Source: Hoplostethus atlanticus (Eukaryota; Chordata; Actinopteri; Trachichthyiformes; Trachichthyidae). Taken from it: a stretch of DNA of 64,000 nucleotides. A program made the position numbers and the translations under genes. The stretch's first letter is position 1, and every line of letters begins with the position of its first letter. The notes under the pieces are model-generated. The model saw nothing but the letters and a program-made list of their open reading frames with translations, had not been told where the DNA came from and did not search any database. Shown piece by piece: positions 2,159 through 64,000 of the stretch. The stretch is taken from contig JAXDDX010000014.1 of NCBI GenBank assembly GCA_034670405.1, positions 4,778,501 to 4,842,500 on the forward strand, read 5' to 3'.

Positions 2159-3680
2159 CATAACCTAGGAATATTACAGTACACTGATCCGAGTCCATCC
2201 TGGTCACACCGAGCCTTGAACAAGGAAATGTCACCCAACATTCACACCAGACAATTGTACGTTTTCTATAGGGTATCATCTGACAACGTCACCACAAGCA
2301 CATGTTTACATTCCGTGTGCAACGTGACATGGCACTCAAGACACTCGTGAGGGTGATTTTATTTACTCATTCACCAAATGAGTGAACATCTGTTGTACTG
2401 TTGACACTGTACAACCTCCACCCTTGTATAATGGGCCTTTAACGGCACGCCAGCGTGCCAGAAACGTAACTCTATCAGGGTTGTTTTGCCGGGTCGACTT
2501 ATATGGGTTAACCCTTTCGTACTGACTGTTTACCCGCAGATTTCCCGGGTCAGTAATTTGGTGCTAAAGGGGTATAACATGGGAAGATTTACTGTGTTTC
2601 AGACCGCACTAGGTTTAGAGTCACTTCTGTGGCTCGAGCTACAGTACGCACTTTTGAGTTCCACTTTTGAGTTCCACTTCTGACCCAGAGGAGGCAAGTG
2701 TGTGGAAGTTTAGGAGTTCCTCGAGTTGTAGGTGGGCGAAGGTCGATGCACTGGTTTAGTCATCCCTCCCAACATAGTGATGGAAAGTGTGATCACGGAT
2801 TGTCCATATTTTTCATTTGTTACTGTTGAGTCCATTCCTTTTCAGGCTTGTGTACTTGGTATGAGGAGGATGACACCACAATGAAAATGTCTTGGTATCA
2901 ACTTTAACATAAGATTCACATAACCTAGGAATATTACAGTACGCTGATCCGAGTCCATCCTGGTCACACCGAGCCTTGAACAAGGAAGTGTCACCCAACA
3001 TTCACACCAGACAAGTGTACGTTTTCTATAGGGTATCATCTGACAACGTCACCACAAGCACATGTTTACATTCCGTGTGCAACGTGACATGGCACTCAAG
3101 ACACTCGTGAGGGTGATTTTATTTACTCATTCACCAAATGAGTGAACATCTGTTGTACTGTTGACACTGTACAACCTCCACCCTTGTATAATGGGCCTTT
3201 AACGGCACGCCGGCGTGCCAGAAACGTAACTCTATCAGGGTTGTTTTGCCGGGTCGACTTATATGGGTTAACCCTTTCGTACTGACTGTTTACCCGCAGA
3301 TTTCCCGGGTCAGTAATTTGGTGCTAAAGGGGTATAACATGGGAAGATTTACTGTGTTTCAGACCGCACTAGGTTTAGAGTCACTTCTGTGGCTCGAGCT
3401 ACAGTACGCACTTTTGAGTTCCACTTTTGAGTTCCACTTCTGACCCAGAGGAAGCAAGTGTGTGGAAGTTTAGGAGTTCCTCGAGTTGTAGGTGGGCGAA
3501 GGTCGATGCACTGGTTTAGTCATCCCTCCCAACATAGTGATGGAAAGTGTGATCACGGATTGTCCATATTTTTCATTTGTTACTGTTGAGTCCATTCCTT
3601 TTCAGGCTTGTGTACTTGGTATGAGGAGGATGGCACCACAATGAAAATGTCTTGGTATCAACTTTAACATAAGATTCACA
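2159..3680. repeat. 760-bp tandem duplication (two units)
   Basis: Unit 1 is about 2,161-2,920 and unit 2 about 2,921-3,680, with a constant offset of 760 bp. By eye I find about six single-base differences and no indels, so identity is roughly 99%. Both junctions carry CACATAA microhomology: CACATAACCTAGG starts each unit, and after unit 2 the sequence goes from CACATAA into unrelated ATTGATTGG. Each unit includes an inverted repeat near its middle. No coding potential is recognised; the 65-aa open frame repeated in both units is a by-product of the duplication. This looks like a recent segmental tandem duplication or an assembly duplication. Confidence 0.93.
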
Positions 3681-6600
3681 TAATTGATTGGGCTGCAACA
3701 GGATGCAGACGTGCTACTGTTGCTTCTTGTGTTTTTATATCTGTTTGTATCCAATATTAAAATACCTCTAACAAATTTTGAATTACTTGCAGCCCATTTA
3801 TTGTCTTGTTGAACAATCAATCATCCCTCTAGGTTGCAGAATGAATGTAATTCATGTAAAGTATACAAAGATAAGGGGGCGGTCAATGCACTGTGGACGA
3901 CAAGTACTGTAATTATTCTTTTTCCACGACGGTGTGTGTACAAACAAGCAAACATTATTTTGCACCCATACTTTATCCAGTAGGACCTCTGCACCTTCTT
4001 TAAGCTAGTCTAGAGTCTCGTTGCTTTACCAATACAGGGTCAATTCAGTATGTAGGACAGCTGGCCAATATCAGACTGTAATTAATAGATATTTTCCTTC
4101 ATAAACTTAATAGGTTTGCCTGACTAATTGCAAGATTTAAAATGTCAAAGATGGCTGGTGTTTTCACTCACTCACAAGTCAAGGCTCGTTCGTTTGTTCA
4201 TCTGTGTTTTGTTGGACACACCTTCATTTGCACCTCAGGTGTATCTTGCTGCGGGCTGCTTATCTCAATGCTGACCTTTTTAAATTTCAAATGTTTGAAG
4301 AGTGGCACATAAGAAGGATGAGCAGGGAACAAGTGAAGGTCTGGATCACACCCATATTGACAGTTCCTGATTACTTTCTGCTTACATCTAGTTCCATAAG
4401 TGGCCTTTGTATCTGTAGGTTGGATATTTAGAAATGGTGGCTAGTAGTGGCTACTTACTATCCATACATGCTAAACACCAAAAAAAATTATTTCACACCA
4501 CTTGCCATCCCAGAAGATGCTGCATAGCTTTAAGGAATGTTGTTGATGACCTGTTTCATTCTGACACGTCAAAAGCATCAGTCACACGTACACGCATAGG
4601 CATACCACACATAGTGTATCAGAATGGCATCCAGTAGTATTACCCAGTTGACACAAAGAGGAAGAAAGTTGAATCTGCTGGTGCTAAGACACACAACACA
4701 TTTCTTCTAAAGTAGCACAGCTTCCCGGTTTGTAAGGTGACGAGACATCCTGTTTTTAGTATTTCAGACCCTTTTCAGGTGTGCACACTTCTGAAAAAAC
4801 CTCAGTTGTCTATTACAAAAGGTGGCTGTAGCAACAATTCAGCACAAGCTGTAATAATAAACAACAAGCCTTTGTGTGCAAAATGAATCTAATTTTGATG
4901 AAGTTGCAGCATGTAGGGACTCTGCTTATTATTAATTTGTGTTTGTTCATGGCCACAATTACATTTCACTCAAGTTAATTTTCCGTTGAATTGAAAGTTA
5001 TTTCTTTCAGGTTCAATTGAAATTAATTGATGGAAATTGAACTTAATTGGAACACAAAGGACTCTCACTCTGTTGTTCATGGCCACAGTTACAGATCTTC
5101 AAATTGTGCAGGTAAAATTATAAGTACCTTATTTACATGCCCACTCCAGTCTTTCCTGTATTTCAGCCTCATAAATCCTGTTACCTTTGCTATTTCATAC
5201 CCCATCCAAATCAGTGGGCCTCCTCTAAATGGAAAATGAACGAATTAACAAATCCATGTTATTGCTGGAAACAGTCTACTGTCTCTAGTGTTTTATTTTA
5301 ACTTGGTGGAGATTTCTAAAATCTGGATTAGGCCTGTTTGATTATTTGACTAAGAGCTACACATTTGGCATTTTGATTGCACATTCTTTTTAAAAGGTTA
5401 TCCTGTTTTTCATTAGTGTAATATTCTGGTAATTACAGAATAATCATCTGCCAGAATCTGTAGTTGGCCTTTGCATTGCCATGTAATGACAATGCAGTGT
5501 TACCTCAGTACTACTCACCTGTTTGTTTTCAAACCAGTTTTATTGTCTACTGTTTTCTGTTTGCTAAGACAGACAGACAGTAAATTTGTTTGAAGTTGAG
5601 TTTGGTTAAAGTGGTGAAACAAGGAGATGGGCTTAGAAAGGGAGAGAATGTGATGCAAAATGAAGAAGCCGTGACCCACTTACAGCCAGCTTGATGCTGC
5701 AAGTGTGAACAGTCTTGGACAGTGTGACTGAAACTGCTGCATACAGTATAGTTAGTGCTGGCATTCTCCTGTCTGCTGTCAGGCTAAATAGAGACAGTCA
5801 CAGCTTGGCTTGATATGCTGCTGTTGCTACAGCAGACCTACTGTGGCTGATATGGAAGAGTGTAGGTTCGCCTTGCTAGTAGAGGAGCAGCTGCCGCTAG
5901 CCATACCTGCTGTCTGTAAAATGGAACAGAGTGCAGGGTTGAGCTCAGATGAGACTTGAGTTTGGCATTCATGCAGATCCTAGGATCAGCTCCAGTACCT
6001 GTGACTTGAAATATAACGATATATTTTATAGGACTATCATGGATTTCAGAAGGCCATAGCTGGATTGGGCAGATGCATCAGACGTTTCAAAAACAATCAC
6101 ACTCTGTAAAGCATGTCAGATGGTGTTCTGCATGCACTACGCTGTGCCCTGTTGTGTTTCAATAAGTCCACGTAAAAGACAAGGCCATAAAGATGGCCCT
6201 GTCATTGTTCTTACATCATTGTTGTTACATCACATGGGCATGGGCCTGGCACACAGTAGCACACTGTGTGGAACACAAAAGCATTTCTCACATGCAGGGA
6301 CTTGTCACAGCCATTTCACAAAACACATGTCATTCTGATTCAGATGGAATCGCTGGCTTAGGATGATAGTGAGAGTTTGTATGAGTCATGCAAGAGGCAG
6401 AATGGAGAGAGCACTTTCATAGGGGAGGCCGGGAGAGAAGCATAGCCTAGCACAGCTTATGTGGTAGTGTTGCCCTAAAGGTCAGGTTTTATACTGTCTT
6501 TTGATCTCAGGTTACAAACACAGCAGGGCATTTGTTGTGTGCTAGGAAGCAGGTTGCGACACTTGAACTGAATATATTTGTTGTTTGAGGATGGGTTCTA

Positions 6601-9600
6601 GGAATTCAAACTTGTTGGGAATGCCTTCTCCATAATCTACAAGCTGCATCACAGTTCCCTCAACATAGTTAAGGGGTGGGCAACATGTTTTGGCTAGGCT
6701 GTGAAGACCTGCCAGCACCAAAAAAAGCATGAAAAGTCACTAGAATTTTGCAAGCAAGGAATAAATCTGTAATTAATCAATGTTCATAAAAAAGTATCAA
6801 ATCTGTCTATTTGGGGAGGCAGAAATAACAGACATTAATATAAAAAATGATTATAAATATGCAAGATATGCCTTTTTAAAAATCTGATTACAGCAGTTTC
6901 CATTTGCTGAGTGCATCAATACCACTATATCACTATATATCATATATTATATATCATATAATATCACTGTCAAGAGGCTTAGGTGGTGCCTAAGCGCGGC
7001 TGGTCTGGCTTTGTCATCGTGGCCAACTTAACACCCATACATACCTCTTCTATTCCAATTTTATGCTTTTATAGACAGCAGTTTTTGGCATCGACTAACA
7101 TGATACTGTCCTAGTTGAGTCATTCTTTAGCTTTTCAAATCCTATTTTATTCATTTTTCCACATCACAATCCACTCTCACGTCCTTAAAAATGTCCTAAG
7201 GTGGCTCTAAATTATCAGTAAATCAGTTTATTTGACTTGAAAAAACCCCAATATATATATTGTACTTTTACATAAAATAGTCCTCCTCACAATTGCACAA
7301 AATGATTGGCTCTGCAGGAACATTGCACACCCCATTTATAGTATAACACCAATTTGTGTTGGAGCTTGAGTCTTTTGCGTCTTCCAGATAGGACACGGTT
7401 TGCTCATCGCTCGCCACTTGACCAGACGTTAAGGAAGTCGTGATAGCATGAAAACAATAGGCAGAGTGTGAAATATTATCAGTATGTTGCCTCATGCTTC
7501 ACTATTGCTAGCTTTTTTGAAATGTAATACATTTATTTGGAAGAATTATTTTGCAGCTAATTATTTTAGGTAGGATTTGACAGTCTTTTGATACAGAGAT
7601 GTATTTTTCTATTTCCTTTTTAAGGTTGGACATTGACAGAGAACATTAGGCCTGGACTCTCACTCTCACCAATTACTGTCATTGGTCATGGAGTGTGATA
7701 TCTGACACTTTCAAATCTAGGTTGCCTAAATCAGTGGTTTTAGTTCTTTTAAATCTTGATGAAAATAAAATATCTTTTCCTGTCTAGTTTATTCACAAAT
7801 CATCACTGACTTGGATTAGGAAGTTAAGCTTACTTAACTCATGCAGCCGTAATGAACTTTTCACCTACTACGCGACTGTTGATGCACCACAATTGAGACC
7901 AGCTGAGCCCGTTACAAAAGGGAGAGTTGCAGAGCAAAACAGGGCTTGTTACTATGCAAGGATGAGTGTGATTGTACCTACTGAGCTGATGAGAATATAT
8001 TCTCCCCACATCTCCGTCTTTCATTCTTTACAATCCACAATCCACAATCAGTTAGCGACATTGCCTTGGATGGCCTGGAAGCTTCTGAGCAGTAGCTACA
8101 ATCAGGGTCATCTACAAGTTAAGTCATTAATCACAGTTTTTTCTAGTCCTTGGCTGTAGATAAAAACGGATAAAACATAAAGCAAGTGAGCATGATCAGA
8201 TAAGATTTCACTCTAGTGAAAAAAGTGAAAGAAACCTCATTCCCATGGTAAGAACATGGTAAAGAATAAATACGGGTGTACATTGATGAAGTTATTTCAT
8301 ATTAGACAACATTAAGGCAAACAGTCTTGGTGTATCTTGCATAACAGTGGGGAAGAAAAATTTATTTTTACTTTTTTTACAGTCATAATTTCCTCCCGTC
8401 CCATCGAGGCTACAGTATTCAAGCAAATTCATGTTCAAATCACAAAGAAAAAGAGGGCTTGGTCTAAAGCGTAGCCTGTACATATTACAGCCGCTACTCA
8501 GCCTAAGTGCATCTGCTAATGTCCACAGTAGAAGCTGCTGGACAACACCACTAATAGGCTACATCCCCGAGGTGATGGATAGGAATGCCCTTGAGGAGGC
8601 AAGTGCTATTAGTGGGGACGTAGAGTTAAGACTTGTACTGATGACCAAAGTCTGTTTCCATGAAGTGAGTCTAGCAGAACCTTGTTGCTTGCTGATTAGC
8701 TTGACACAGAACTGGTTATAAGCCTAATAGGCTGGATTTGGTGTATGTCACTGTGCAGTTTGATGGATTGAACCAGGATAAATGGGCTACCCTGCCCTCT
8801 ACTATAGGCTTGTACTGTATGAAACAAAAGGCAAGGTAGTCTTTTAACTGCAGACTATCAAGAGATAATGAATCTGGAGGAAAAACCCACATGTGTACTC
8901 TGTCTTACTCTGAGTGTTAAAGGGACATTTTTTTCTTAGCACATGCATCCCAATGTCAAACATGAATTGTCCTTGGAATCTGTTGTCACAACCAGCAAAA
9001 TTGCTTGAAAAATGAGACCCTGGACACAAATGAATTATTACCTAGATTGACCTGACCTGATTTGTTAGAATAATGATTTTGAGATTTAGATTTTCAAAAC
9101 AAAAGTAGTACGTGGCGATGTCTACGGGTTCCCAGAGAGGTCAATATTGATGGTCGACCATATTGATGGTCGACTTTCAGGTGATTTAACACACCCTCTG
9201 GCAGCCATAGCAGAGGTCCACTCTTGGCAACGGTGGCTGCCAACGTCTGATTGTGTTTCTAAACATACGACCTGGCTGTCTCAACAGAATTCAATAGACT
9301 TGGTTCATTTCAGGACTGTATTTAGCTGGGAACTAATAATGTGCCACTGATAAATTGTTGTGTGATTTTATGTTTAGATAGTAATAGAGATAGAGCTTGT
9401 TAGCAAGACAATCAGATAACCATCACAGTGTTGTAAACACATCTGATTTACCCACTAGCTAACAGATCTAGCAGAAGCTAGTGTTAGTAGCAGTAGTTTA
9501 CATTAACCTGCTGGCTAGTTAACTAGCTAACAAAACCAAAAGTCAACTGTTTGTTTAGGTGACTCTTCTCATGTTGCATGTTCATGTTCATGTTACATGT

Positions 9601-13740: not shown

Positions 13741-13842
13741 GGCAGTGATGCCTGGCATGGTGATGTTTCGGCGGCGCTGGTCAGTTGGCAGTGATGACCT
13801 GGTGCTGCCCGCTCTCTTCCTTTTTCTATTGCACTGCGTCTG
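13741..13842 (+). CDS. dagla: dagla coding exon 1
   Basis: The acceptor CTTCCCACAG precedes seven 5' UTR bases and the ATG at 13,748. It encodes [20 protein letters not shown] and the first half of membrane segment 1, and ends mid-codon (phase 2) at TG|GTGAGT. The UTR bases after an acceptor imply a non-coding exon upstream. Confidence 0.95.
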
Positions 13843-14185
13843 GTGAGTCAGTGTTTCTCTCACTGTTTGTCCATTTTTCTGTGTATATTCAATTATCTCT
13901 TTCTCTGTGTGTCTCTGTATGTTTGCTTTTCTGTACCTTTACTACATTTCCCTTGTCTTTTCTACTCAGGTTGGTGGTTCTGTCTGTGGTTCTGTTCGGC
14001 CTCCCCTATGGCTCAGATCAGTCCTGTTCTGTCACGCTGGTGGACCATGGCCGAGGGTATCTGGGCATCCTGGTCAGTTGCCTCATCTGCGAGAGTGCCA
14101 TCATGTGGCTGAGCATGAGAGGCAGCATCCTTTACACACAGCCCAGGGAAGCTGTGCAGTATGTCCTCTATATACGGCTGGGTAA

Positions 14186-14248
<63 letters not shown>

Positions 14249-16702
14249 ATTCTGAAGCGCTCTTATATGCAGGATAACATTTTGATAGTTTGGAGATACC
14301 TTGTATTTCACTACAACGTGTGTGGTGTGCTCTGTTGACATATTTTAAAGATTTTTCTATCCAAGGGAGTTTTACAGGGTGTGAGGAATAGCTGTAGTTA
14401 TGGTTCCCACTTAAGATTCAAACATTGCCTAAATTGATTGGGTAGATATTGATCGTTGTTCTACTTAAACCCCCCTCTTTCTTTTTCCCTGTCTCCTTCG
14501 TTCCCATCTTTCCCCTTCTCTAGCTATTCTGCTGGTAGAGCTAGTGTACGCAGTGGTGGGGATTGTGTGGCTTGTCCAATATTACCAACCGTGCTCTGAT
14601 GTCACTGCCAAAAACCTGGCTTTGGGTAAGTGAAGGGGACCATGAAGGACAATGAAAATATCTTTTTTTAAAATGAGGGAATGTTGTTGACATTCAACAA
14701 TCAATACTGATTATCTGGCCTCTCCGAAGGAATCGTTGCATGCAACTGGCTAGTGATATTCAGCGTGTGCTTCACCCTCATGTGCACCTTTGATCCTACG
14801 GGACGGACGTTTGTCAAACTGAAAGCCACCCGCCGGCGTCAACGCAACCTCACCACATACACTCTCAGGTAACAGACCCAAAGAATTTTCTCTCTCTCGT
14901 TCTCTTCCTCTCTCTCTCTCACTCTCTTGACACAGAACATCGAGCCACGGCACATACACATCTCTCCTCTTTATCACTCTGATTCGATCTCAGCGCTGCC
15001 TTTTGTCTTTCTCGTTCCCTCAGACACAGGCTAGAGGAGGGCCAAGCCAGCAGCTGGAGCAGGAGACTCAAGTTCTTTATGTGCTGCACGAGAGCCCAGG
15101 ATACGCAATCAGTGAGTCACGACACACACTCCTTTTCTGTGTGTTAAGGGAAAAGGAGAAAATAATGGAACGAGAAATTTGACACTTTATTTTCAGCCTC
15201 ATCAATGACAAATCACACGTACTGTACCACCTAGAGTTGTTGTTTTGTTATTTTATCATGTTCCAATAACTGACCTTGTGCATGGCTGTAGTGTACTTTA
15301 GCAGTGAACGTCAACTGTCGCTAAAGAGGAAGACCTCATGTGTGTCACAGGCTTCTGTCACCTGTGCCATCATTTTCTGTTACTGTCCTTTGCCACCTTG
15401 CCCTGACGTCCGCTGCTCTCTTGTCCAGGACGCGTACTCAGAGGTGGCCAGCCTGTTTGCAGAGTTCTTCAGAGACCTGGACATAGTGCCTAGTGATATT
15501 ATTGCTGGTCTGGTGCTTCTCCGCCAGAGACAGAGGTCTAAGAGGTCTGCGATCCTGGACCAGGTATCTCATTCAACGATGTCCGTGCATGTCTCCGTGT
15601 TTGTGCTTTTGTGTGTAGGTCCTGTCGTGGAAATGATTTGCGATTCTGTTGTTTTTCTCCCGCAGGCCAACAACGACATTTTAGCCTTCTTATCCGGAAT
15701 GCCTGTCACTCGCAATACTAAATACCTGGACCTTAAGAACTCGGTGAGTTTCTGTCTGTGTGATCATGTTGTCTGATTTGTATGTATCTCCAGGTTGTAG
15801 GTTGACAGTCACAGTAGAATATGATTCATCTGAACCACATAGGGCTCTTTTTGAAAGTGAAATATTCAGAATTCTGCAATACATTAAAACGGTGGATCAC
15901 AGCTTATTCAAAAAAATAGACATGCACTCACTTTCGTTCTAAAAGGCTCTCTTCAGTCTTATTGGCCCTTGAAATGCTTTTAATTGCATATAATAATCAA
16001 ATGATCGGAGTTCCAATTCACTACATGAAGATAAAATATCGCAAATGATAGACTAAAACAGGTTTCTGCTAGCTAACAAATTGTTCAGAAGGACATCATT
16101 AATTCAAAGAGGTCAAAAAGAAATTGTGATACGTAGATCCAGACACCTCTGGCCTCATCGTACAGAGAGAACAGAGGCTCTCGTAGCTAAAGGGCCCTTC
16201 ATTTGTGAAGGTACAACTTGCACTATTGCCTCTTCAGCAATAGGAAAACTACTGATTGCTTTGTCCTAGATTGATGTAATATTATTACATCAAGGAATGT
16301 TTTATACATATGAATCAATACTACTGAACAAGTGCTGCCAGTTTGTTAGGCTAGAACCCGATTTCCCCCCCCCCCCCAAAGAAAATGCTTTGGATTTGCG
16401 CAACTGCTAACTGCTAACTGTTCTGTTCATGTTGCTGTTTGTATTTTTTGTGCATCTGTACACTTGTGTGTATTTACTAAAGGGTCTGAATGTGTTGTTA
16501 CTCTTGTTCCTCAGTCCTGTTTTAACTCTTGTCTGTCTGTCTGTCTGTCTGTCTGCCTCTCCCAGACTGAGATGACCATGTACAAGGAAGTGTGTTATTA
16601 CATGCTTTTTGCCCTGGCTGCATATGGTTGGCCCATGTACCTAATGAGGAAACCTGCCTGTGGGCTGTGCCGCTTGGCTAGCTCCTGCCCGTGAGGACAC
16701 AC

Positions 16703-16754
<52 letters not shown>

Positions 16755-19700
16755 TATCCATTTGCCTGTCTGTCTCTTGAGCTTGCAAATAGTGCTCACA
16801 TTTCATTTGCGTCAACACTGACCTAAGTTGTAACCCACTGAGACGATGCCCCTCTAGTCAGACCCAATCACTGACACAGGCAATGTAGACTAAAACACAC
16901 ACTCGTATCCAATTTACCTGCTTTCTGACTGTCTAATATTATCATTTTTTCTCCTTATCATTTATGTGTCTGATGCTCTCTCTTCAAACATTCTGTCGCA
17001 CCTCTTTTATCTATTCTTTGTCTTTTCGTGCCCTCATGTTCTCTTTTAACTTTCCTCTGTGTCTCTCACCCCAGCTGTACGTCAGTGTCTGGCTCTCGGT
17101 TGTCCCAGACAGTGACAGTGGAGGAGGACAACTGTTGCGGCTGTAACGTCCTGGCCATACGCAGGCACTTCCTGGATAGGGACCTCAAGCAGGTTCACAT
17201 TGTCTACACTTCCTGCCATGATGCTGTGAGTAATCTGACAATTGGTTGACAAGCAGTCTGAGGTCACTCAGACTAAATGACCTGGAATAACAAGGAAGAA
17301 TGGCTGAGCAACAGCATCAGGAAAGGCAGTTTTCACTTTATATCTGAACTGACGCTGGTCATTACACAAGAAATGCCATTTTTATCCTGGGCACCTAGTA
17401 TATGTTGTATCCCAGGGTTTGATCAGTCTGTTGTGATGTGTTATATTAACCCATAATGATCCATGAAACAAGATCACACAGTTCACAGTTTACAGCCAAT
17501 TAGTTGTTAAAATAGTTTCCTAATGACGTAGCATATTAAATGTTCTATTTCTGATTTTATGTTTTTATATTTCCACAGCAGTGCAGCTAGCACTTGACCC
17601 ACACAATATCTGTAATTTGTAAAGCAGAGTGCCTCTCAGTGAAGTTAGCCAGCTCTGAGTTTCCATCCATAAATCCCCTTCTTGCAGCGGCTTATATGAC
17701 TGTGTGGATGTTGTCCAGCAGAGAAAGGTTTGATGACAAAGACCCTCTGCAACAGCTCAGTCTACTAAGATAGTAGACTGAGAAGTGAAATGTGTATTTG
17801 TCTTCTACTTACTATCCCCCCCCCTTTATTTGTCTCTCCCTTGCTCTCTCCCTATATCTGTCTCACCGTCCCTCTGTATCTTTCATAAAGGTTTATGAGA
17901 CTCCGTTTTTTGTGGCAGTGGATCATGGGAAAAAGAAGGTAGTCATCAGTATCAGAGGAACCCTATCGCCCAAGGTGAGATTCAACAATCTGTGTTGTTT
18001 TCACAGTCATTTCACAGTTTCACAGACTTCCCAAACAGTAGTTAACTGCTCACAACATCGTGACTTCCAGAGCAGGTGAAGTTCTCACAGTTGGATGTGA
18101 AATTCCCAAACAAATTCCCACGCCCTCCTCACATGTCGGGGAAAACGGTTTCTCTCTTTCTTTGTGTGCTTTCCACTTGTCTTCTTCTACTTGTTTCCTC
18201 TCCATTGTACTGCGTTTTGTAGCGTGTTTAACCTGTCTCCTGTGTGTCAGGATGCCTTGACTGATCTGACGGGGGACTCTGAACGTCTACCTGTGGAGGA
18301 GCAGCATGGGAACTGGCTGGGCCACAAGGTCTGAGTTTACTGTTTTAAACCACTCTGCGGACAGAGAGGCTCTTAGGCCCATTTCATTCTCTCTGTTCCC
18401 ATCATCCTCTCCACTTTCTAAATCCCTCTCTTTTCCTTCCACTCTCAGGGAATGGTTTACTCAGCAGAATACATTAAGAAGAAGCTGGAGCAGGAAATGA
18501 TCCTGTCACAAGCCTTTGGAAGAGACTTGGTACATGAGTCAATATATCAGTGCAGTGGGCTGAATAATGGGCATTGTCTGCGTCGTATTGTGTATCGGTA
18601 TTATCACTAGTGTTTTATTTAAGGCTATACTAGCAACATTTCAACGAACCAAACACCGATAACAATAGAGTCATTTGCTCCTTTCTCTCCCAGGGTAAGG
18701 GCACCATGCACTATGGGCTGGTGATAGTAGGGCATTCTCTTGGTGCAGGCACTGCTGCTATTCTCTCGTTCCTGCTGAGACCTCAGTACCCCACACTTCA
18801 CTGCTACTCTTACTCTCCACCTGGTGGCCTTCTTAGGTGAGTGCATGTGCATTTTTTCCGTTTCTGTGTTTATTATGTTATATGTTATCGGGGCCTGATG
18901 TGAGAAGATGAGTACTTCTCACCACTTTTACATGGTTTGGGGAAGTACCTACAAACTTTCACATCACTTTGATGTCCTTGTGAAGGTATCTTCTGTATAT
19001 TATTCCATGTATTGCATTATTCCACAATTTTTTTTTTTTTTCAAGGGTTGGAAGTTCATTGGCAACTATCACCTACACTATCTGCTGACCTTTGTCCCGT
19101 CCCTACACACTGGAGCAAAGCACCTTGCCATAAAGCTGCAGCTTAAACTGTGCTTGCCTGTCATAGCAGAAGAAAGTCTGTATTAATAGAATATCAAATG
19201 CTCCGGTGCACTCTTGGTGCTTCAGTAAGATGAGGCAATTTGTGGTCAGATGGTATGCTGGTTTTGCAGCGCAGTTGCCATGGCTGCCAGTCATTATTAT
19301 ATAGTATAAAACAGAGAAGATTAAAAAAAACATTTTTGGATTGATGTACTTTTTGGTTTTGTTTAAATAGGCTTTATGTGTGAGTATTGTTCTCAAGCGA
19401 AATGTTCTCTCGTCATTTACAGCATTGCATCTATCAGAAGATGAATGTATTCTCGTCCATGAGCCCTCTTGTGGATGTGGTGATATGTGGATGAACCTTA
19501 AATATTTTATGTGGAAGAGCACATGATGGCGGACTGTGATGCCCATCACGCAGCACTATTTGCTATCGAGAGCTTTTGAATCACTTTGAATTAGAGTGTT
19601 TGAAAATGTGAGATGGAAATCTATACACATTCAGTATAGAAATGGATTTTTCCCCCCAGTTCACACCCATTACCGTCCCCACATTTCCCATTCACATAAC

Positions 19701-22700
19701 GTCACTTTCTCCATCTTGTTTTACCCAGTGCGGATGCCATGGAGTACTCCAAAGATTTTGTTTCCTCTGTGGTATTAGGAAAAGACCTGGTCCCAAGGTA
19801 CGTCCTCTTCTAGATGCAGTATAGCCTTTACTTCTCTATATTACAGCATTAGCAGGGTACACATATCTGCTGCTGGTCTCTCATAGGGTTGGCCTGTCAC
19901 AACTGGAGGGTTTTCGACGCCACCTTCTGGAAGTCTTGCAGAAAAGTAACAAGCCAAAGGTGACTTTACTTTCAACAGTATAGTAGACTGTCATCTGTAG
20001 GTAAACTCTAAAGCATCAAACTTGCTAGAAAAAAGGTTGTGCTCTTTTCAATGTCATGTACTAAATATAGTATAGTCAAATACTATTTTGTAGAATTTTC
20101 ATGAAAGTCAATTCTGCAAGAAGATTGCACAGATCCACATCATGCCACACACTGAAATACACCTTTCTCTGCGACAGTGGAGGATCATTGTGGGAGGCAC
20201 CAAGTGCATCCCTAAGTCAGAGCTTCCGCTGGAGGAGGATGGTCCCCAGTCTCAACCAGCAGCGCCATCCAACAGCTGCCTGTGGCTCCACCCCAGTGAC
20301 CTCAGCATTGCCCTGTCAGCCTCCACCCCGCTCTATCCCCCTGGCAGGATCATCCACGTGGTGCACAACCATCCCCCAGAGACATGGTGAGGCGAGAGGT
20401 TTGAAAGCTTGGGGTAGACTAGAGCAATTTAAACCCAGGAAGATGTTCTTTACTGTGATCATGGCTATGATGGTGATGTGGCTCGGTGCACCTGTAATTA
20501 TCAGTACTCTTACACTGCTATAGTCACAAACAACACAAGTATTATGTGAATACCTTGTGAAAGCGGACATGAGGATTCATTAATGTGCCATAGAGCTGTT
20601 CTAAAGCTTGTGTTTGGATATTACTGTATAAACCAAAGTTGTGCATAACCCTATTTCTTTGCCAGGAGTGAGATCTGTCTACTGTCCAGTGATATCATTG
20701 TCTCAATACTCTTTGAGAGACAGATTTTAGGGATACGTTCAACAGAGATGCCTAGCTTTCACATAACTGCAAACGACAATCTTTATTGCCGGTGTTATGG
20801 GATATTGGAATTCGATATCTGATACTGGTCCCGTCAGACACCAGTATCAAATGTAAACATCCTGTATCAGTTGGTCCTGACTCCAGGGTCAGAATGTATC
20901 TCAGTGTCCAGGTTAATTTCATAGTTATTTAACTGATAAAGGAAGCAAATATTTTGGTATTTTGATTTAGCGATCACAATCCTCACATAACATTGGCTAG
21001 TTTGAATAAAGTCTTTGTGGCTTCAACAGTGAAAGGAGGCTCGAGATGTGTCACTTGTGGTTTGGTAGTTCACCGCTGTTCATCTGAGAGTTATTGCACA
21101 GAGGCAAGTAGCCTTGTAATCTCTTAACTGCCCACTACAAGCTGGTGGAAAACCACCATGCGGAAGTGGTTTGGCTAGCTTAACAAGCCCATGTGGGTTT
21201 TTGAATGTGTGATAACGGCATTAAAAAGACACATTATAAATGCAGAAAAGAAATGATTTTACATTGCTACTGCATTGCCTGTTAGAATCAGTATTATGTA
21301 GGTTATATTTGATGTATTACATTGTAAGCTTTTTGCTGGAACCGTTAAAGAGAATTTCATATCTGTAACTATGACAAAATTCTCAAATACAGAATCTTAA
21401 ATCTTTCCATATTTTCTTGTTCTTGCAGATACATTATCAATGCACTATAACATTCAAGTTCAAGCTACATCATAGTGTTGCCTTGTCTTTTACAATCTCT
21501 CACTATCTCTCTCTCTCTCTCGCCCCCCTCTCTCTCCTCCACCCTCTCTCTATCACTCCCCACTCTCTCACTCTAGCTGTGGACAGGAGGAGCCCACCTA
21601 CTCGGCTCTATGGGGGGACAACAAGGCCTTTGACGAGGTCGTCATATCACCAGCCATGCTAAATGAGCACATGCCTCACATGGTGATGGAGGGCCTCAAC
21701 AAGGTCTGTGACTATCTGTGTGCATGTGGAGAGATTGGGGTGTTCCTGCTTGAAAAGGGTGGCACACTTCAGGCATTGCTGAAATGGCTTGTGGGTCCTT
21801 TTGCTGATTTTGAATGAATGGATATGTGTTTGTGTTGTTGTATCTCCATGTGGCTTATTGTATCTGTGTGACTAGCTTCTAACTGTCCATAACAAACAAA
21901 CAACAAACACAACCATTCATTCACAAATATTTTCTTAAAAGTTGTATTACATTTGTTCATAAAGGGGGATACTACTATTTAAAACTTCACATATGTTATA
22001 CTCTGACCTAGGACCGAATTCAGTATCATTGCTGATGTGTCTGACTGTGATATACATATTCATATATATACATACCCCTTCAAAGTCAGTTAAGAATAAA
22101 TATTCTTACTGAGGGATTTAAGATCAAATCTGTTTGTATGGACAATTTATGCATGTGACCCAGTCTTAACTTAACAACTAACCGCAGCATTTTTTTTTCT
22201 TCACATTGCTTAGCTGGGCATGGGGACTGTTCACCCCTGGTGGGCTTCATGGGGTTCTCTGGTCTCTGAGTGTCTCTGAGTCTCTCGCGGGCAGAGCTGC
22301 AAAACTGAGCAACATCTACTCAGATAAGGCGGTTGGAGATGTGTATGCTTGCATGTGATGGACTATGTTATGGGGGTGGCACTAAGGTTTCTTCTGATTT
22401 GAAGAGTCAAAGTTGAAGGTTTGCCTGTCTCTGTGTACATGTCATGTGTTATTACATAGTCTTGCATCAATGTTTGAGTGTCGGCGCTGTGTCTACATGT
22501 CTTTTGATGAATGAGGAATTTTGGGATGAATGAGAAATCGTGTGTGTGTGTGTGTGTGTGCTGTGCTGTGCCTAGGCTGTAGTATGATACCTCTGGTGTT
22601 TCTGCAGGTGCTGGAACCATTTTGTCTCCTGTCTGAGCAGGCAAACTCGGAACCAGAGGACCTGGAAGTCAATCAACCGACCTGCAATACTACTGTGCTT

Positions 22701-25700
22701 ATAACCTCCCAAACAGAATTACCCTCTAGTCCTCTCCTTTCTGACTCCTGCCTCAGCCACAGAGACCCGTCTTGCACTCCCCCTCTCCCAGAGACTCCCC
22801 CTGTCCCGCTGACTGTTTTGGCCTCTTCTCCTTTTTCAGATGCCCAGTCTGTTCTTCCTCCTCTTCTGTCAAATAATACTTCCGTCTGTCAGCAACCCTT
22901 GCTGTCTGTCCCGCCACTTTCTAACAGTCCTTCACAGTCAGGAGAGCTTTCAGTTGAACATGAGTCACACATTCCATCACATAAGCAGCCAGACTCACCC
23001 TGCTCTCCCCCTTGTGTAGAGGTGATTCCTACTCCTCTTTCTGAAATCCTATCTGATGGGTTGTCTGTTATATAATGCTCCTATTAACACATTAATGTCA
23101 AATACCTCTAGTAGTTTACAAGTGCCAAATAGTCCCCCTGTCTCACTTCTAGGCCTTGCCTACTGCCCTCAGGCCTCCCATATCTCCTGTGCACCATCCA
23201 TCATCACTCTAGTGCTGACTATTTATTAACCTTCAGACCCAACAAATAGCCTTTTGCAATCCCAATTCCTTCTCTCCCCTTCCTATTATCAGCAACAAAC
23301 AGTAGATTTGGTCAAGCACTATGGCACGCACTTTCTACATCCTTGTTACTGGAGTTAACACATTTTATTTCTATTTGTGAAGTTTCCATTTCCTCATTTC
23401 TTCCACATTAACCTCGTTCTCTCCGTTCTTGGCTGGCTTCTTTCAGGGTTGTCATTGGCTGAAGCTCCAGATGCCCTCTTCTCTTTGGATGTTTCTCCTC
23501 CTTCCTCCCTCTTGTTTAAAGCTCACATTCAGCATTTTCTCAGTCATAACCCCCTTGAGGAATTGTCACAAAGTGTTATACATTACTCATGAGGAGCAGA
23601 TGAGAAGGACAGCAACAAAGGAGGGAAAACCGTTCATTAGCTCTACTACTCTGCTGTAAATCTCTTACTATAGCGGTCTACAAAAATAAGTTCTCGTTTT
23701 CACTTCTGAAAGAATAGTCAGAAGGGATAGCTTTTATACTGGAACTGCATCAGAGAGCCATGCTATGTCGTCATTGTGTCTTCACGATGAGTGATGTGTT
23801 GAGAAATGATGTATGACTGTAGGGGTTTCATTGCATTTTGATTGTGGAGAGTTGGTCTGTACTCTCTCTCTGTCTTTCTCTGTGGGATGCTCTTCCTCAT
23901 TTGTGGGTGGCAGAGTATGCGGTCTCATGCTTTGTTTTGAGTCATTTGTTAGTTGTTGTGCCCTCAACTGCTGGTGATGTGTTTGATATTTTTTGTGCCA
24001 TTGTTTGCTGCAGGCGGTCACTTGCAGCAATCTAGCCTTCCTGTGTCTTTGCATCTGCATCTTCTAAATCTGTGGTGTCATGTGACCTACTGTGATCCAT
24101 ATCCATCACCTCCGTAACCCAGACATAATATCCATGTTTGTTTACTGCCATTTTTAACTTATTGTGTAACATGTGTTTCATTCATTTTTTTAATATAACT
24201 ATTACCTGTCATTTTCAGTTTTGACATTTTATGTTCCATTGTTACATAGATGTTTTTTGTGTCATGTCTTTTATGTCATGTCTTCTAACTGTATTTATAC
24301 CATTCTGTGCTTTCAGTAAGTGTTTTCACTCATTAAAGATAACCAAATATTAATTGTGTGTTGATGTGATTTGCCATTAGTGTTTGTTACCCTAAGTTAT
24401 TATTTTTTTCCCTGACCATTTACAGAAGGGAGTTTTTTTGGGATTTTGTGGGATAGGTTAGATCGATTTTCTTCTTTTTTCTAAATTGCGTAGTGTTATG
24501 GCTTGCCATTCCTTATGATGAGCATCCATGACTCCATTGTGGGTGTCTAATGTCAGAGTAGGTGTAAGCTCTCCTTTTGAATACACCTGCATTTATCTTT
24601 TTACTTACACTGTTGCTGCTTTACAGTAAAACATTTAAAAAATAGAAAACATAATCATATTTGCATTTAGATTTCAATGTAGTAGGTCCTGGTAATATTT
24701 CATTCAATATTTCATTTCATTTCAGTAGTCTGACGTAGCTTATTTCAATTATGTAACCAGATCGTAGTGACTGCATTTATTGTTCATTAAGCCTGAGAGA
24801 TGATGTAAGTGACTGGGTCTGTTGATGAAACATGCTCCAATAATGGCTGGTGGATTATACACTGGTTTTTATCTGCACCTTTTCTATGGCAACTCTGTTA
24901 TGAATTGTTGTTCATTTCCACCCACTGCTGACATAGAAGAGGGATGGGACACAATTATAAAAGAACGATGTATAAACTTATTCCGTTTCAAAAAGTCTAG
25001 TGCGCTGAGATGTGTTTGTATTTCCATTTAAAAAGCTAGTTTTCGAAAACATTATGTAGAACAATATTGAATTGGAGTAAGCCAATGAGCTTTTCTTTTT
25101 TTATTGCAGACCCATCTTTTTTCTATGTCATAATTTATTGGTTCTGTGCACCGAAAATAGAATTCTAGTCTTCAGAGATTGGGTGAGCACTGCAGTTTTT
25201 CCACTCAGAACTGGGCTGATAATACCTGTTGGCAATTATACCTCTCTGCATGCATTCTCAATCCCTACTGCTCATCCTTTCTTTTCCTCTCCTATTGAGT
25301 ACCTGTATGACTACTCCTTCTTGGGAGCAATCAAGTCTAGAAACAACATTTCCCATGCTGCTGGTGACTGTATTGATGTGCCCCCTGTGCATGTGATAGG
25401 TGCTGGAGAACTACAACAAAGGGAAAACAGCTTTGCTGTCAGCAGCCAAGATCATGGTGAGCCCCACAGAAGTGGACTTGAATCCAGAGACAATCTTCAT
25501 CGGTGCATCGACAACTTCCAAGCAGCCGACACCTTCAACCCACCACCGCAGGAACAGTAGTGTTCGGTTAGTGTACTAAGCACCACTGTGGGTCTGTTGA
25601 GGCTGAAGTATCATGTGGTCAAATAGATGGAGTCTGGATTTTAGAAAAACTATTTGATCCACTGTGTATTCAGTTCCCTCCGTGACCTTAATAGAGGTCA

Positions 25701-27428
25701 AAATTCTTCCTAAACTTCAGGAATAGTCAGTAAACTAACAGTACTATTTGTATTTGCTACACATCAGGGAGAATATACCTAAATTCCTTCAAATCATGTT
25801 TTTCTGTTTGTTGTCCTTTTTAAAAAAATAAAATAAAAGCCTATAAGCATTTTCACAGTAAGCAAAGCATGAGATCATTAACTCTTCATCTGTGCTCCTC
25901 TCTCTCATGCATGCACACTGTGTGACTACAGAGCAGTTGCAACGTATGGTAGTATCCAGTTCCCTCCTCGCCCTCTCTGGTTTAGCCCCTGCCCAAAACC
26001 AGTATAAACTCCTGATAGTGATAGTTGAATTATAATGTTGCCTCTCCTGTGTTAGACACTAATAAAAGATCATATACACTAGGATACACTCCTGCCCCCC
26101 CCCCCCCATTCCTCCACTTCTCCTTTCTCTCTTTCCTTTTTTCTACATGTTTTTGCTGGTATTAACCTAGTTTTTGTAACCCTGATGTGATTTTAATAGT
26201 AGCACATCCCCATTTTTCCATTTCTTGTGAATTTGTGTCTTGACCCATATTTTAATCTATATCTTGTGAATCTCCTCTCTCCCATCCCTCACTTTCCCTT
26301 TCCCTTCCCTTTCCCTTCCCCTCTAGTTCCTGTGCCCAATCTGAAATATCTCTGGATGGTTTCGCTGAGTGCCCTCCTCCCCCAGTGCCCATAGTGCTGC
26401 GTGGGGCACGGGAGCGCCTGGCAGTGGAGTTGAGGGACCGCAAAGCACCCCTGGCTGTCATGGAGAGTCTCTCGGATGCTGAATCTCTCTATAGTCTGGA
26501 CTCCCGACGCTCCTCAGCTGCACTAAGGGGTTCACCTATGCTGGGTTGCCTCCCTTTCCCTTTGGATGCCCCCATTCCCGAGGAGAACCCATCTCTTAGC
26601 TCTCGCACTGAACTACTGGCTGCTGACTGCCTTTGCCAGGCTACTCCAGAGCATCTGAGAGAGGCTGGATCCTTCTTTAACCCTCTGGAATCTAGATCCA
26701 CCCCTGATTACTCCATGCGTCTGTCCCCCGCTACACCTCACTACAGTGGACACCATTCCCCAGCTCCGCTAGGCCAGAGTGTCCTGGCTCAGCCTTTCAA
26801 GCCAGAGCCTAAGGCCAACCCAAAAATGCTTCCTGATGGGGAACACGAGATGCCTGCTGTCTACAGTCCAGGGACCACCCCTAATGCTCCCCTCAGTCCA
26901 CAGATCGGCTCTAGACTGGTGGATGGAGAAAAGGAGGAGTGGGAGTCGGAGACAGCAGAAAAACAGTTTAGTGTGGAGACCAGGCCGGCAGCCTCCACTC
27001 CTCCGCCCCAAATGTCCAACGGAAACCCCAGCCAGGCAGTATTGGAGTTTGCCCAGTATCTAGACTCTCTATTCAGACTGGATGGTAGCAGCTCACCACC
27101 TCTGGAGCTGTCTGATGGGGAGTCAGAGTCAGGGCGGGGCTCCTTCGGGCAGGGTGAGGGTCTGGGAGAAGGACAGCGGTTGGATGACAAACAACTTCTG
27201 GCCAGAGCAACAATGGAGCCTAACCTGGTACCCAAGCCCCCACGCACTTTTGCTGGATCTGCTGACCCCTCTTCTGGCATCTCTTTGTCACCCTCCTTCC
27301 CTCTCTCATCATCTGGGGAGCTCAATGACCTGTCCCCTGCCGACGGTGCTCCACTGGCCGCACACTCTCTACGAACATCTACCCCTTGCCACTATCCTGA
27401 AGAGAATACACTATCCTCTATGGTGTAG
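13748..27428 (+). CDS. dagla: diacylglycerol lipase alpha (sn-1-specific), whole coding span
   Basis: Nineteen coding exons join to 3,258 nt (1,085 residues plus stop; human DAGLA is about 1,042). The enzyme hydrolyses the sn-1 chain of arachidonate-containing diacylglycerol to make 2-arachidonoylglycerol at neuronal plasma membranes. Four N-terminal membrane segments are visible (about residues 18-43, 61-81, 102-124, 133-157), then a lipase_3 alpha/beta-hydrolase domain. The nucleophile motif is GHSLGAG (Ser ~471), the acid lies in LGKDLVPR (Asp ~523), and a likely catalytic His is in [10 protein letters not shown] (~652). The C-terminal tail keeps [19 protein letters not shown] and a PPRTF Homer (PPxxF) ligand at ~1023-1027. 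All junctions are GT/AG and the frame is unbroken. The start [20 protein letters not shown] matches the vertebrate N-terminus. Confidence 0.97.
13970..14181 (+). CDS. dagla: dagla coding exon 2
   Basis: Residues ~32-102: the end of membrane segment 1, the extracellular loop with [15 protein letters not shown], membrane segment 2 and the [20 protein letters not shown] region. The donor GTAAG is followed immediately by a long (AC)n run. Confidence 0.96.
14187..14244. repeat. (AC)n microsatellite abutting a dagla splice donor
   Basis: About 29 AC units starting five bases after the exon 2 donor GT. Intronic CA repeats are known binding sites for hnRNP L, so repeat length could influence use of this donor; that effect is inference. 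Confidence 0.97.
14524..14625 (+). CDS. dagla: dagla coding exon 3
   Basis: Encodes [20 protein letters not shown], membrane segment 3, and then the Cys-containing loop [12 protein letters not shown]. Acceptor TCTCTAG, donor G|GTAAG; it starts with two bases completing a codon and ends with one base of the next. Confidence 0.95.
14730..14868 (+). CDS. dagla: dagla coding exon 4
   Basis: Membrane segment 4 ([20 protein letters not shown]) followed by the cytosolic [20 protein letters not shown] block that leads into the lipase domain. Closely matches the vertebrate sequence. Confidence 0.95.
15024..15111 (+). CDS. dagla: dagla coding exon 5
   Basis: Encodes [20 protein letters not shown], then CTRAQDTQS, corresponding to the RHRLEEGQA...LCCTRTKDSQS segment of mammalian DAGLA. 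The exon ends on a codon boundary. Confidence 0.94.
15429..15563 (+). CDS. dagla: dagla coding exon 6
   Basis: Encodes [20 protein letters not shown], then [20 protein letters not shown], one of the most conserved segments of the family. Both ends are phase 0. Confidence 0.97.
15666..15743 (+). CDS. dagla: dagla coding exon 7
   Basis: Encodes [20 protein letters not shown], then LDLKNS, identical in pattern to mammalian DAGLA. Acceptor CCCGCAG, donor GTGAGT, both ends phase 0. Confidence 0.97.
16566..16690 (+). CDS. dagla: dagla coding exon 8
   Basis: Encodes [20 protein letters not shown], then [20 protein letters not shown] with the Cys-rich palmitoylation-prone stretch. A (CTGT)n pyrimidine tract precedes the acceptor and an (AC)n repeat follows the donor, so the exon is flanked by simple repeats on both sides. 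Confidence 0.96.
16697..16749. repeat. (AC)n microsatellite abutting a dagla splice donor
   Basis: AC repeat (one GC interruption) beginning six bases after the donor GT of coding exon 8. This is the second dagla donor with this arrangement. Confidence 0.96.
17075..17225 (+). CDS. dagla: dagla coding exon 9
   Basis: Encodes a variable spacer ([11 protein letters not shown]), then [20 protein letters not shown] and [11 protein letters not shown]. The EEDNCCGCN signature is diagnostic for DAGLA. Ends phase 0. Confidence 0.96.
17891..17974 (+). CDS. dagla: dagla coding exon 10
   Basis: Encodes [20 protein letters not shown], then IRGTLSPK: the central beta strand and the IRGT motif of lipase_3 domains that contributes to the oxyanion region. 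Phase 0 at both ends. Confidence 0.96.
18251..18328 (+). CDS. dagla: dagla coding exon 11
   Basis: Encodes [20 protein letters not shown], then NWLGHK. The donor is the less usual but valid GTCTGA. Phase 0 at both ends. Confidence 0.95.
18449..18529 (+). CDS. dagla: dagla coding exon 12
   Basis: Encodes [20 protein letters not shown], then QAFGRDL, the helix upstream of the nucleophile elbow. Phase 0 at both ends. Confidence 0.96.
18694..18836 (+). CDS. dagla: dagla coding exon 13 (nucleophile elbow)
   Basis: Encodes [20 protein letters not shown] and [25 protein letters not shown] is the GxSxG elbow, with Ser ~471 aligning to human Ser472. The adjacent SPPGGLL is also conserved. Confidence 0.98.
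19729..19797 (+). CDS. dagla: dagla coding exon 14 (catalytic acid)
   Basis: Encodes [20 protein letters not shown] then VP; the Asp in GKDLVPR (~523) aligns with the catalytic Asp524 of human DAGLA. Confidence 0.96.
19887..19959 (+). CDS. dagla: dagla coding exon 15
   Basis: Encodes [20 protein letters not shown] then NKPK, corresponding to [18 protein letters not shown] in mammals. Ends phase 0. Confidence 0.95.
20178..20386 (+). CDS. dagla: dagla coding exon 16
   Basis: Encodes [20 protein letters not shown], a variable spacer, then [20 protein letters not shown] and [12 protein letters not shown] near the active site. The spacer is the regulatory-loop region, divergent here as in other DAGLs. 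Confidence 0.96.
21577..21703 (+). CDS. dagla: dagla coding exon 17 (catalytic His; branch point of isoforms)
   Basis: Encodes [20 protein letters not shown], then [20 protein letters not shown] and LNK. The His in NEHMP is the likely triad residue. It ends exactly on a codon boundary (residue 663), so it can join in frame either to coding exon 18 at 25,400 or to the candidate alternative exon at 22,608. Confidence 0.96.
22541..22560. repeat. (TG)n repeat upstream of the candidate alternative acceptor
   Basis: About ten TG units 48-67 bases before the acceptor at 22,607. UG repeats near acceptors are known targets of TDP-43 and CELF proteins; relevance here is inferred from position. Confidence 0.9.
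22608..23075 (+). CDS. dagla: candidate alternative terminal exon of dagla (155 codons)
   Basis: The acceptor TTTCTGCAG at 22,599-22,607 is followed by GTG CTG GAA, the same three-residue VLE opening as canonical exon 18. The frame, phase 0 with coding exon 17, stays open for 155 codons to TAA at 23,073. The tail is Ser/Pro/Thr-rich and probably disordered. It contains [11 protein letters not shown] and ends ...DGLSVI, whose last residues S-V-I fit a class I PDZ ligand. A terminal exon fits, because an ATTAAA signal with downstream GT-rich sequence follows at 24,332. The product would be 818 residues, with an intact catalytic domain but no MESLSD block and no PPxxF site. I know of no homologue; a chance open frame in C/T-rich intron remains possible. 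Confidence 0.5.
   Translation: MLEPFCLLSEQANSEPEDLEVNQPTCNTTVLITSQTELPSSPLLSDSCLSHRDPSCTPPLPETPPVPLTVLASSPFSDAQSVLPPLLSNNTSVCQQPLLSVPPLSNSPSQSGELSVEHESHIPSHKQPDSPCSPPCVEVIPTPLSEILSDGLSVI
24332..24337 (+). terminator. candidate ATTAAA polyadenylation signal of the alternative dagla exon
   Basis: ATTAAA is followed within ~20 bases by TTAATTGTGTGTTGATGTG, a GT-rich downstream element. It would give the alternative exon a ~1.3-kb 3' UTR. Confidence 0.35.
25400..25566 (+). CDS. dagla: dagla coding exon 18 (canonical)
   Basis: Encodes [20 protein letters not shown], then [20 protein letters not shown] and HHRRNSSVR, matching the helix that closes the mammalian catalytic domain and the start of the tail. 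The donor CG|GTTAGT is weak-looking but in consensus. Confidence 0.95.
26101..26107. repeat. poly-C tract in dagla intron 18
   Basis: The run of C continues from the preceding bases (about 26,095-26,107). Within the 25,567-26,326 intron nothing else stands out except the pyrimidine-rich CCCTTT repeat just before the last exon. Confidence 0.8.
26327..27428 (+). CDS. dagla: dagla coding exon 19, regulatory tail (canonical)
   Basis: One 1,102-nt exon encoding residues ~719-1085. It starts with [14 protein letters not shown] (mammal SKSQSEMSLEGFSE). It keeps [19 protein letters not shown] and [18 protein letters not shown], and ends with [20 protein letters not shown] and [25 protein letters not shown] fits the PPxxF consensus for Homer EVH1 binding, which links the enzyme to group I mGluR complexes; the Ser-rich block corresponds to the region phosphorylated by CaMKII in mammals. 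The middle is divergent and low-complexity. The C-terminus SSMV also fits a class I PDZ ligand. Confidence 0.96.
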
Positions 27429-32142: not shown

Positions 32143-32457
32143 GGGTAATGATAAGTTACATCCAGGTGTAGCCACCTAGCCCAACAGTCAAGGCTCTGAA
32201 TGTAATGTCTGATAGGGATTAATCAGAGGTGTATACACTGAACACTTCACTGGAGTCTGACTGTGATATTTTCTGCCCCCCCCCTTAACAGTGAAATGTT
32301 GTTGGCAACATGTTTATATTATTCTGGAAGGTTCAGAGATCAAACTCTAGTTGACGTAAGATAGCCTGTATAACATAAATAAGCAATGTATTTAATGTCA
32401 TTTTTTCCATTATTCTCTCTTAAAGAGGCTGGTTGGTTGGAAAGAGTGGAGTCAGGC

Positions 32458-52003
<19,546 letters not shown>

Positions 52004-58179: not shown

Positions 58180-63555
<5,376 letters not shown>

Positions 63556-64000
63556 CTGGAGAGACAGGAAGAGAGATGAAAGACCATTAGTATTGGTATA
63601 TATGTATTACCCTATGTCTAAAGATGAAGAAAACCATCATGTGATGTAGTACAAAACGTAGTATTATGACCTGGCTATTATTGACACCATATGTCATTTT
63701 CTGAGGACAGCGTATGAAAGTAAAATAAGATAGATTTGCATTCATGGCATCATGTTCTGCTGCAACAGGAACAGACTTTTCTTTGAGACCTTTCAGTTAT
63801 GAGGATTTAGCGATTCAGAGTTAGCTGACTTAAGTCACTGTGTAAGTTCTTCAGATGAAAAAGAAAATATGTGGGGAAAGCTGTTTATATTCAGTCTTGG
63901 GCTACACAGATGCTTAACTCCTACGCTATTCTGAGAAATTGGTTTTGGTTGATCACATTTTTTAGATCTTTGAGAAATGCCCATATGAAATTTAAATATA
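63556..64000 (-). other. alx4: alx4 intron 1, right edge of window
   Basis: No exon visible. The sequence just beyond the exon start is the pyrimidine tract (in minus sense) of its acceptor. alx4 exon 1 must lie past 64,000. Confidence 0.7.

Follow-up and report, generated by a model that had tools for sequence, protein, structure and literature searches.

Intron 17 of the lipase gene dagla, which lies in a 64,000-nucleotide stretch of the Hoplostethus atlanticus genome (contig JAXDDX010000014.1; the whole stretch is called the window here), probably contains a skipped-type alternative last exon that would be used through intronic polyadenylation. The probability assigned to this interpretation of positions 22,608-23,075, judged from genomic sequence, is about 0.72. 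That the stretch is coding in one form or the other, as a terminal or as a cassette exon, is considered probable, and the terminal form is placed well ahead of the cassette. An open frame in the proper phase, a coding-like pattern, and splice and poly(A) signals are present at this place, and no second copy was found. A sequence-only reading of the window had proposed a coding alternative terminal exon of dagla here; the proposal is well supported by the sequence, with the terminal position being the better of the two coding readings and the use in transcripts being a prediction.

The exons of dagla were located by tblastn with a human DAGLA protein as the probe, and only coding exons are numbered, exon 1 being the one with the ATG. 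On the plus strand, 19 coding exons between 13,748 and 27,428, joined at their splice sites, encode a protein of 1085 residues with the C-terminus SSMV. Exon 17 ends at 21,703 (AAG/gtctgt) in phase 0 after 663 codons. The alternative frame follows an acceptor, ttctgcag, which ends at 22,607; its codons occupy 22,608-23,072 and its TAA stop 23,073-23,075. When the exons were assembled, exon 17 joined to this frame gave an isoform of 818 residues, with S471, D523, and H652, which we take to be the catalytic residues, all upstream of the junction. The re-read sequence and the assembled exons thus agreed with the earlier reading on the coordinates of the frame, acceptor, stop, and ATTAAA signal, on the phase shared with exon 17, on the length of 818 with the three residues retained, and on the start VLE common to the frame and the canonical next exon, with GTGCTGGA present at both.

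This common start is unlike what would be expected by chance. The string AGGTGCTGGA occurs in the window, both strands included, only at 22,606 and 25,398, i.e., at the alternative acceptor and the exon 18 acceptor, and about 0.002 chance occurrences of a match to the exon 18 start are expected over the 177 AGs of the intron. Exon duplication was considered as the source of the common VLE and rejected: outside it, identity was 7/39 downstream (bases 10-48) and 13/40 upstream, which is at chance level, and therefore no exon duplication is visible. The retained VLE may have a role at the end of the lipase domain.

It is unlikely, though worth weighing, that the frame opened by chance in a pyrimidine-rich intron, perhaps from an old CT-rich triplet repeat, and is unused by transcripts. 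The base composition gives some grounds for this, as C+T is 0.63 in the frame and 30 of the 155 codons are NCT. Nevertheless, only 4332 of 3,849,435 dinucleotide shuffles of the same bases stayed open (P 0.0011). The earlier estimate for a run of 155 open codons was about 6 in 10,000; the figure for the actual composition is 1.1 in 1,000. After removal of frames overlapping the listed exons or the alternative frame itself, none of 3144 control acceptor-by-phase frames in the window reached 155 codons (the longest had 135). The frame was also the longest among 96 in-phase candidate acceptors of the dagla introns (score at least -0.04 and at least 30 bases past the donor). A further acceptor-like AG (score 4.31), just before 22,641 and thus 33 bases into the frame, is in phase and would leave 144 codons; this was the next-longest in-phase frame, followed by frames of 141 and 114 codons, both of which crossed real exons.

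Openness is accompanied by a coding-like pattern. The period-3 statistic of the frame was 27.4, a value reached by 0.05% of the 4332 open shuffles (P 0.0005 given openness). A positional model of the dagla last exon gave +16.5 bits in the phase of the frame compared with -21.3 and -23.9 in the other phases, and no score as high was obtained among 3047 overlapping 465-base segments of non-exon sequence from both strands; with models built from each half of that exon separately, the frame scored 15.1 and 15.6 bits, and in neither case did any of 5000 shuffles or of 775 open shuffles do as well. The dinucleotide GA occupied codon positions 1-2 in 18 codons of the frame, compared with 2 and 4 in the other registers and an average of 9.4 in open shuffles, none of the 775 reaching 18, and the frame is therefore rich in Asp and Glu. 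G at codon position 2 was found 13 times where 24 were expected (P 0.0013). A CT repeat does not account for the in-frame GA excess, and the 125 codons left after removal of the NCT codons keep a positional skew, with G at 35/13/30 and A at 19/37/32 by codon position.

Several observations weigh against a coding exon at this place. When a codon model was built from every dagla exon, its preference for the frame did not exceed chance (P 0.18; margin P 0.29), and the corresponding positional model gave only 0.5 bits, a score reached by 14% of the 3047 segments. A model from one ext2 exon, the training stretch of which included some non-exon bases, gave -30.9, with 97% of open shuffles as high. 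Because the all-exon dagla and ext2 models fail to favor the frame, the support stems from its likeness to a disordered Ser/Pro tail and not from general codon usage. The pattern is weak in the first third of the frame (G 4.2; held-out score -4.5, yet the best of the three phases). Measured from stop to stop, with 26 more codons upstream of the acceptor, the frame ranks second of 126 non-exon frames by period-3, and a decayed CT-rich triplet repeat, to which the NCT codons could belong, could add to the pattern. By the acceptor matrix, two AGs within the frame, at 22,792 and 22,840, and one at 25,110 score higher than the alternative acceptor. Moreover, the putative exon is based on the genome sequence of one species.

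If the stretch is coding, it could alternatively be an in-frame cassette exon (22,608-23,021, 138 codons) spliced to canonical exon 18, whose product would carry a Ser/Pro-rich block between the lipase core and the tail; by the count of joined exons this product has 1222 residues plus the stop and keeps the canonical end. The donor GAG/gtgatt at 23,021 is in phase 0, is the best in 22,608-24,400, and scores above 10 of the 18 donors of the gene, and the joined product can be read through to the canonical end without meeting a stop. However, the pattern of the last-exon model runs past this donor to the stop (3.2 bits compared with -4.8 and -4.2 in the other phases) and is lost beyond the stop, although 17 codons are little to judge from. 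At 414 nucleotides, the cassette would exceed any other internal coding exon of dagla (longest 212). In addition, the ATTAAA at 24,332, which is the only AATAAA or ATTAAA in the rest of the intron, comes after it together with a strong GU-rich element; the stretch downstream of this signal was the most GU-rich of those following 78 plus-strand hexamers of these two kinds. Two U-rich motifs are also found 3' of the ATTAAA, too few for a claim of neuronal regulators. The cassette is accordingly held to be about as improbable as the chance frame, if not slightly more so, and the alternative last exon is preferred.

A second copy of the alternative frame or of the proposed 3' untranslated region (UTR) was not found, as protein or as DNA, in the 633-megabase assembly (1161 contigs; simple repeats and very common words are passed over in the DNA search), where the sole other DNA matches were five GT-repeat matches of 31-42 bases. 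A mobile element or multicopy origin was set aside on these results. For comparison, a second dagla was sought in the same genome, and the tail query matched only the two exons of the window itself (E up to 0.001). In the genome-contig collection there were 43 pattern matches but no relative, and the plasmid collection yielded no relative; the collections are not expected to hold fish genes. Pfam had no match for the alternative tail, nor for canonical exon 17 or the canonical last exon, and PDB had none for the alternative tail, nor for canonical exon 17; these blanks carry little weight because canonical pieces of dagla were also unmatched. Among the matches listed from open-licence PubMed Central, an alternative last exon of dagla was unreported in titles and abstract openings. 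It is very improbable that the stretch is a relic, whether a piece of a different gene, a retrocopy or mobile element that became lodged in the intron, or a dagla exon that has fallen out of use: the weaker first third and the lack of Pfam and PDB relatives, uninformative as the latter is, would fit, but the frame is intact, its acceptor, stop, and poly(A) signal are in order, and the assembly, in a DNA search that passes over very common words and a protein search, gave nothing beyond the GT-repeat matches.

Table 1. Features of dagla and of its predicted alternative last exon in the window; splice-site scores are matrix scores.
Feature	Position	Strand	Basis and remarks
dagla coding exons 1-17	13748..21703	+	tblastn exon finding; 663 codons with the catalytic core; joined exons without stop
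Exon 17 donor gtctgt	21704..21709	+	score 1.34, fifth weakest of 18 donors
Alternative acceptor	22593..22607	+	score 5.12, 4th of 177 AGs in intron 17
Predicted alternative coding stretch	22608..23075	+	155 codons plus TAA, phase 0 with exon 17
GTGCTGGA	22608..22615	+	sequence identity; same as start of canonical exon 18 (VLE)
LPSSP, putative atypical (type 2) Homer ligand as in TRPC1	22719..22733	+	motif scan; isoform residues 701-705
Donor of the possible cassette, GAG/gtgatt	23022..23027	+	score 3.83, best of 22,608-24,400; 138-codon cassette
C-terminal S-V-I, class I PDZ-like	23064..23072	+	translation, motif scan
Proposed alternative 3' UTR	23076..24352 (end approximate)	+	second copy not found
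ATTAAA	24332..24337	+	only AATAAA/ATTAAA in 22,608-25,399; GU-rich stretch downstream
Canonical exon 18	25400..25566	+	acceptor score -0.04, weakest of 18 between coding exons
Canonical last coding exon	26327..27428	+	MESLSD block, PPRTF, C-terminus SSMV

In the new tail of 155 residues, Ser would make up 18% and Pro 17%, and there would be 18 Asp/Glu and 2 Lys/Arg. If the exon is terminal, the MESLSD block and the PPRTF Homer site (residue 1023 of the canonical product) would be lost, as had been suggested; both are located in the canonical last exon. In the motif scan, the PPxxF Homer motif was absent from the alternative tail, and the expanded motif [PIALV]Pxx[FWY] (PMC11237882) was also unmatched there. 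Loss of Homer binding itself is not certain, as the new tail contains LPSSP, which in TRPC1 has been described as a Homer ligand of an atypical kind, type 2 (PMC2666743). The motif appeared in 1.8% (0.018) of shuffled tails and 13 motifs were scanned, and for these reasons it is only a putative ligand and a lead. A gain of a class I PDZ ligand had also been proposed, and this part did not hold: both tails end class I PDZ-like (SVI and SMV), so that the alternative end is no gain. The canonical SSMV is at 27414-27428 of the window. PEST-type instability of the new tail was considered and rejected: by our own version of the PEST formula, it scored 2.3, 4.4, and -0.1, all below the usual cut-off of 5, and the canonical tail holds a segment at 12.4.

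The mechanism that we propose is as follows. With the acceptor at 22,607 used and cleavage after the ATTAAA at 24,332, exon 17 would be joined to the 155-codon tail, which would replace exons 18-19. If the exon is transcribed, translated, and functional, the product would be a membrane lipase of 818 residues with the catalytic core intact and with a shorter, acidic, Ser/Pro-rich, and presumably disordered tail. The choice between the exons could be made by competition between the fair acceptor at 22,607 and that of exon 18, the weakest of the gene. Without the long tail, the enzyme should no longer be subject to tail phosphorylation or to PPxxF-Homer targeting, with catalysis kept. Deletion of the Homer site kept activity and disrupted targeting (PMC12797192), and C-terminal mutations of human DAGLA kept activity but, in transfected cells, moved the enzyme to a perinuclear location (PMC11314389; see also PMC12308783); by analogy, the short isoform should be active and differently placed, and its tethering might be altered. 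ELAV/Hu proteins suppress proximal last exons in neurons, mostly in fly cases (PMC10551640), so that non-neural use of the alternative exon would be at least as likely as use in the brain.

Comparable arrangements are found elsewhere. A daglb-like gene is present in the same genome (L016, about 907-7822), presumably daglb as judged from its similarity to dagla, and its frame matching dagla exon 17 stops 24 residues after the common core; an end of the lipase core at this point is therefore natural. As in DAGL-beta, the predicted isoform would end its lipase core without the long DAGL-alpha tail, whereas its own tail would have 155 Ser/Pro-rich residues and come from a separate exon. In human DAGLA, C-terminal truncations causing neuro-ocular DAGLA-related syndrome (PMC11314389, PMC12308783) likewise keep the core and affect or remove the tail with its phosphorylation and Homer sites; however, those are mutations, and the fish form would be a regular isoform that carries a new tail. 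The five residues LPSSP of the predicted dagla tail are identical to those of the Homer ligand of TRPC1 (PMC2666743). An intronic acceptor, an own stop, an own poly(A) signal, and a replaced C-terminus are shared with the alternative last exons produced by intronic polyadenylation (PMC10551640), but the dagla site is predicted.

Other features were recorded in the window. A copy of the UnaL2 3' element, the tail of a long interspersed nuclear element (LINE), is located at 50310-50364 on the plus strand (65.5 bits, gathering score 55); no other Rfam match in the window reached its gathering score. On the minus strand, a stop-to-stop frame of 188 codons lies at 1482-2045, outside all mapped exons. 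The frame at 32440-32870 (plus strand) resembles what we take to be ext2 (exostosin), and that at 63179-63586 (minus strand) presumably an alx4-type homeodomain.

Alternative last exons are common among genes and have been reviewed elsewhere (PMC10551640); as a phenomenon they are ordinary, and the dagla case would add to a well-known kind. The tail of DAGL-alpha governs the location of the main enzyme making 2-arachidonoylglycerol (2-AG), and C-terminal mutations lead to human disease with catalysis intact (PMC11314389, PMC12797192). If the alternative last exon is real, a normal isoform with a swapped tail would allow the function of the tail to be tested by deletion of a single exon, and part of the enzyme would escape antibodies or knock-outs directed at the last exon of the canonical form. 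One dagla could possibly provide two differently tethered lipases, a long one with the tail phosphorylation sites and PPRTF and a short DAGL-beta-like one with the atypical LPSSP ligand; the site of 2-AG production would then depend on which form intronic polyadenylation selects. This is a tentative suggestion and a rather doubtful one. If it were true, the disease-causing human truncations would have a natural counterpart in the short form.

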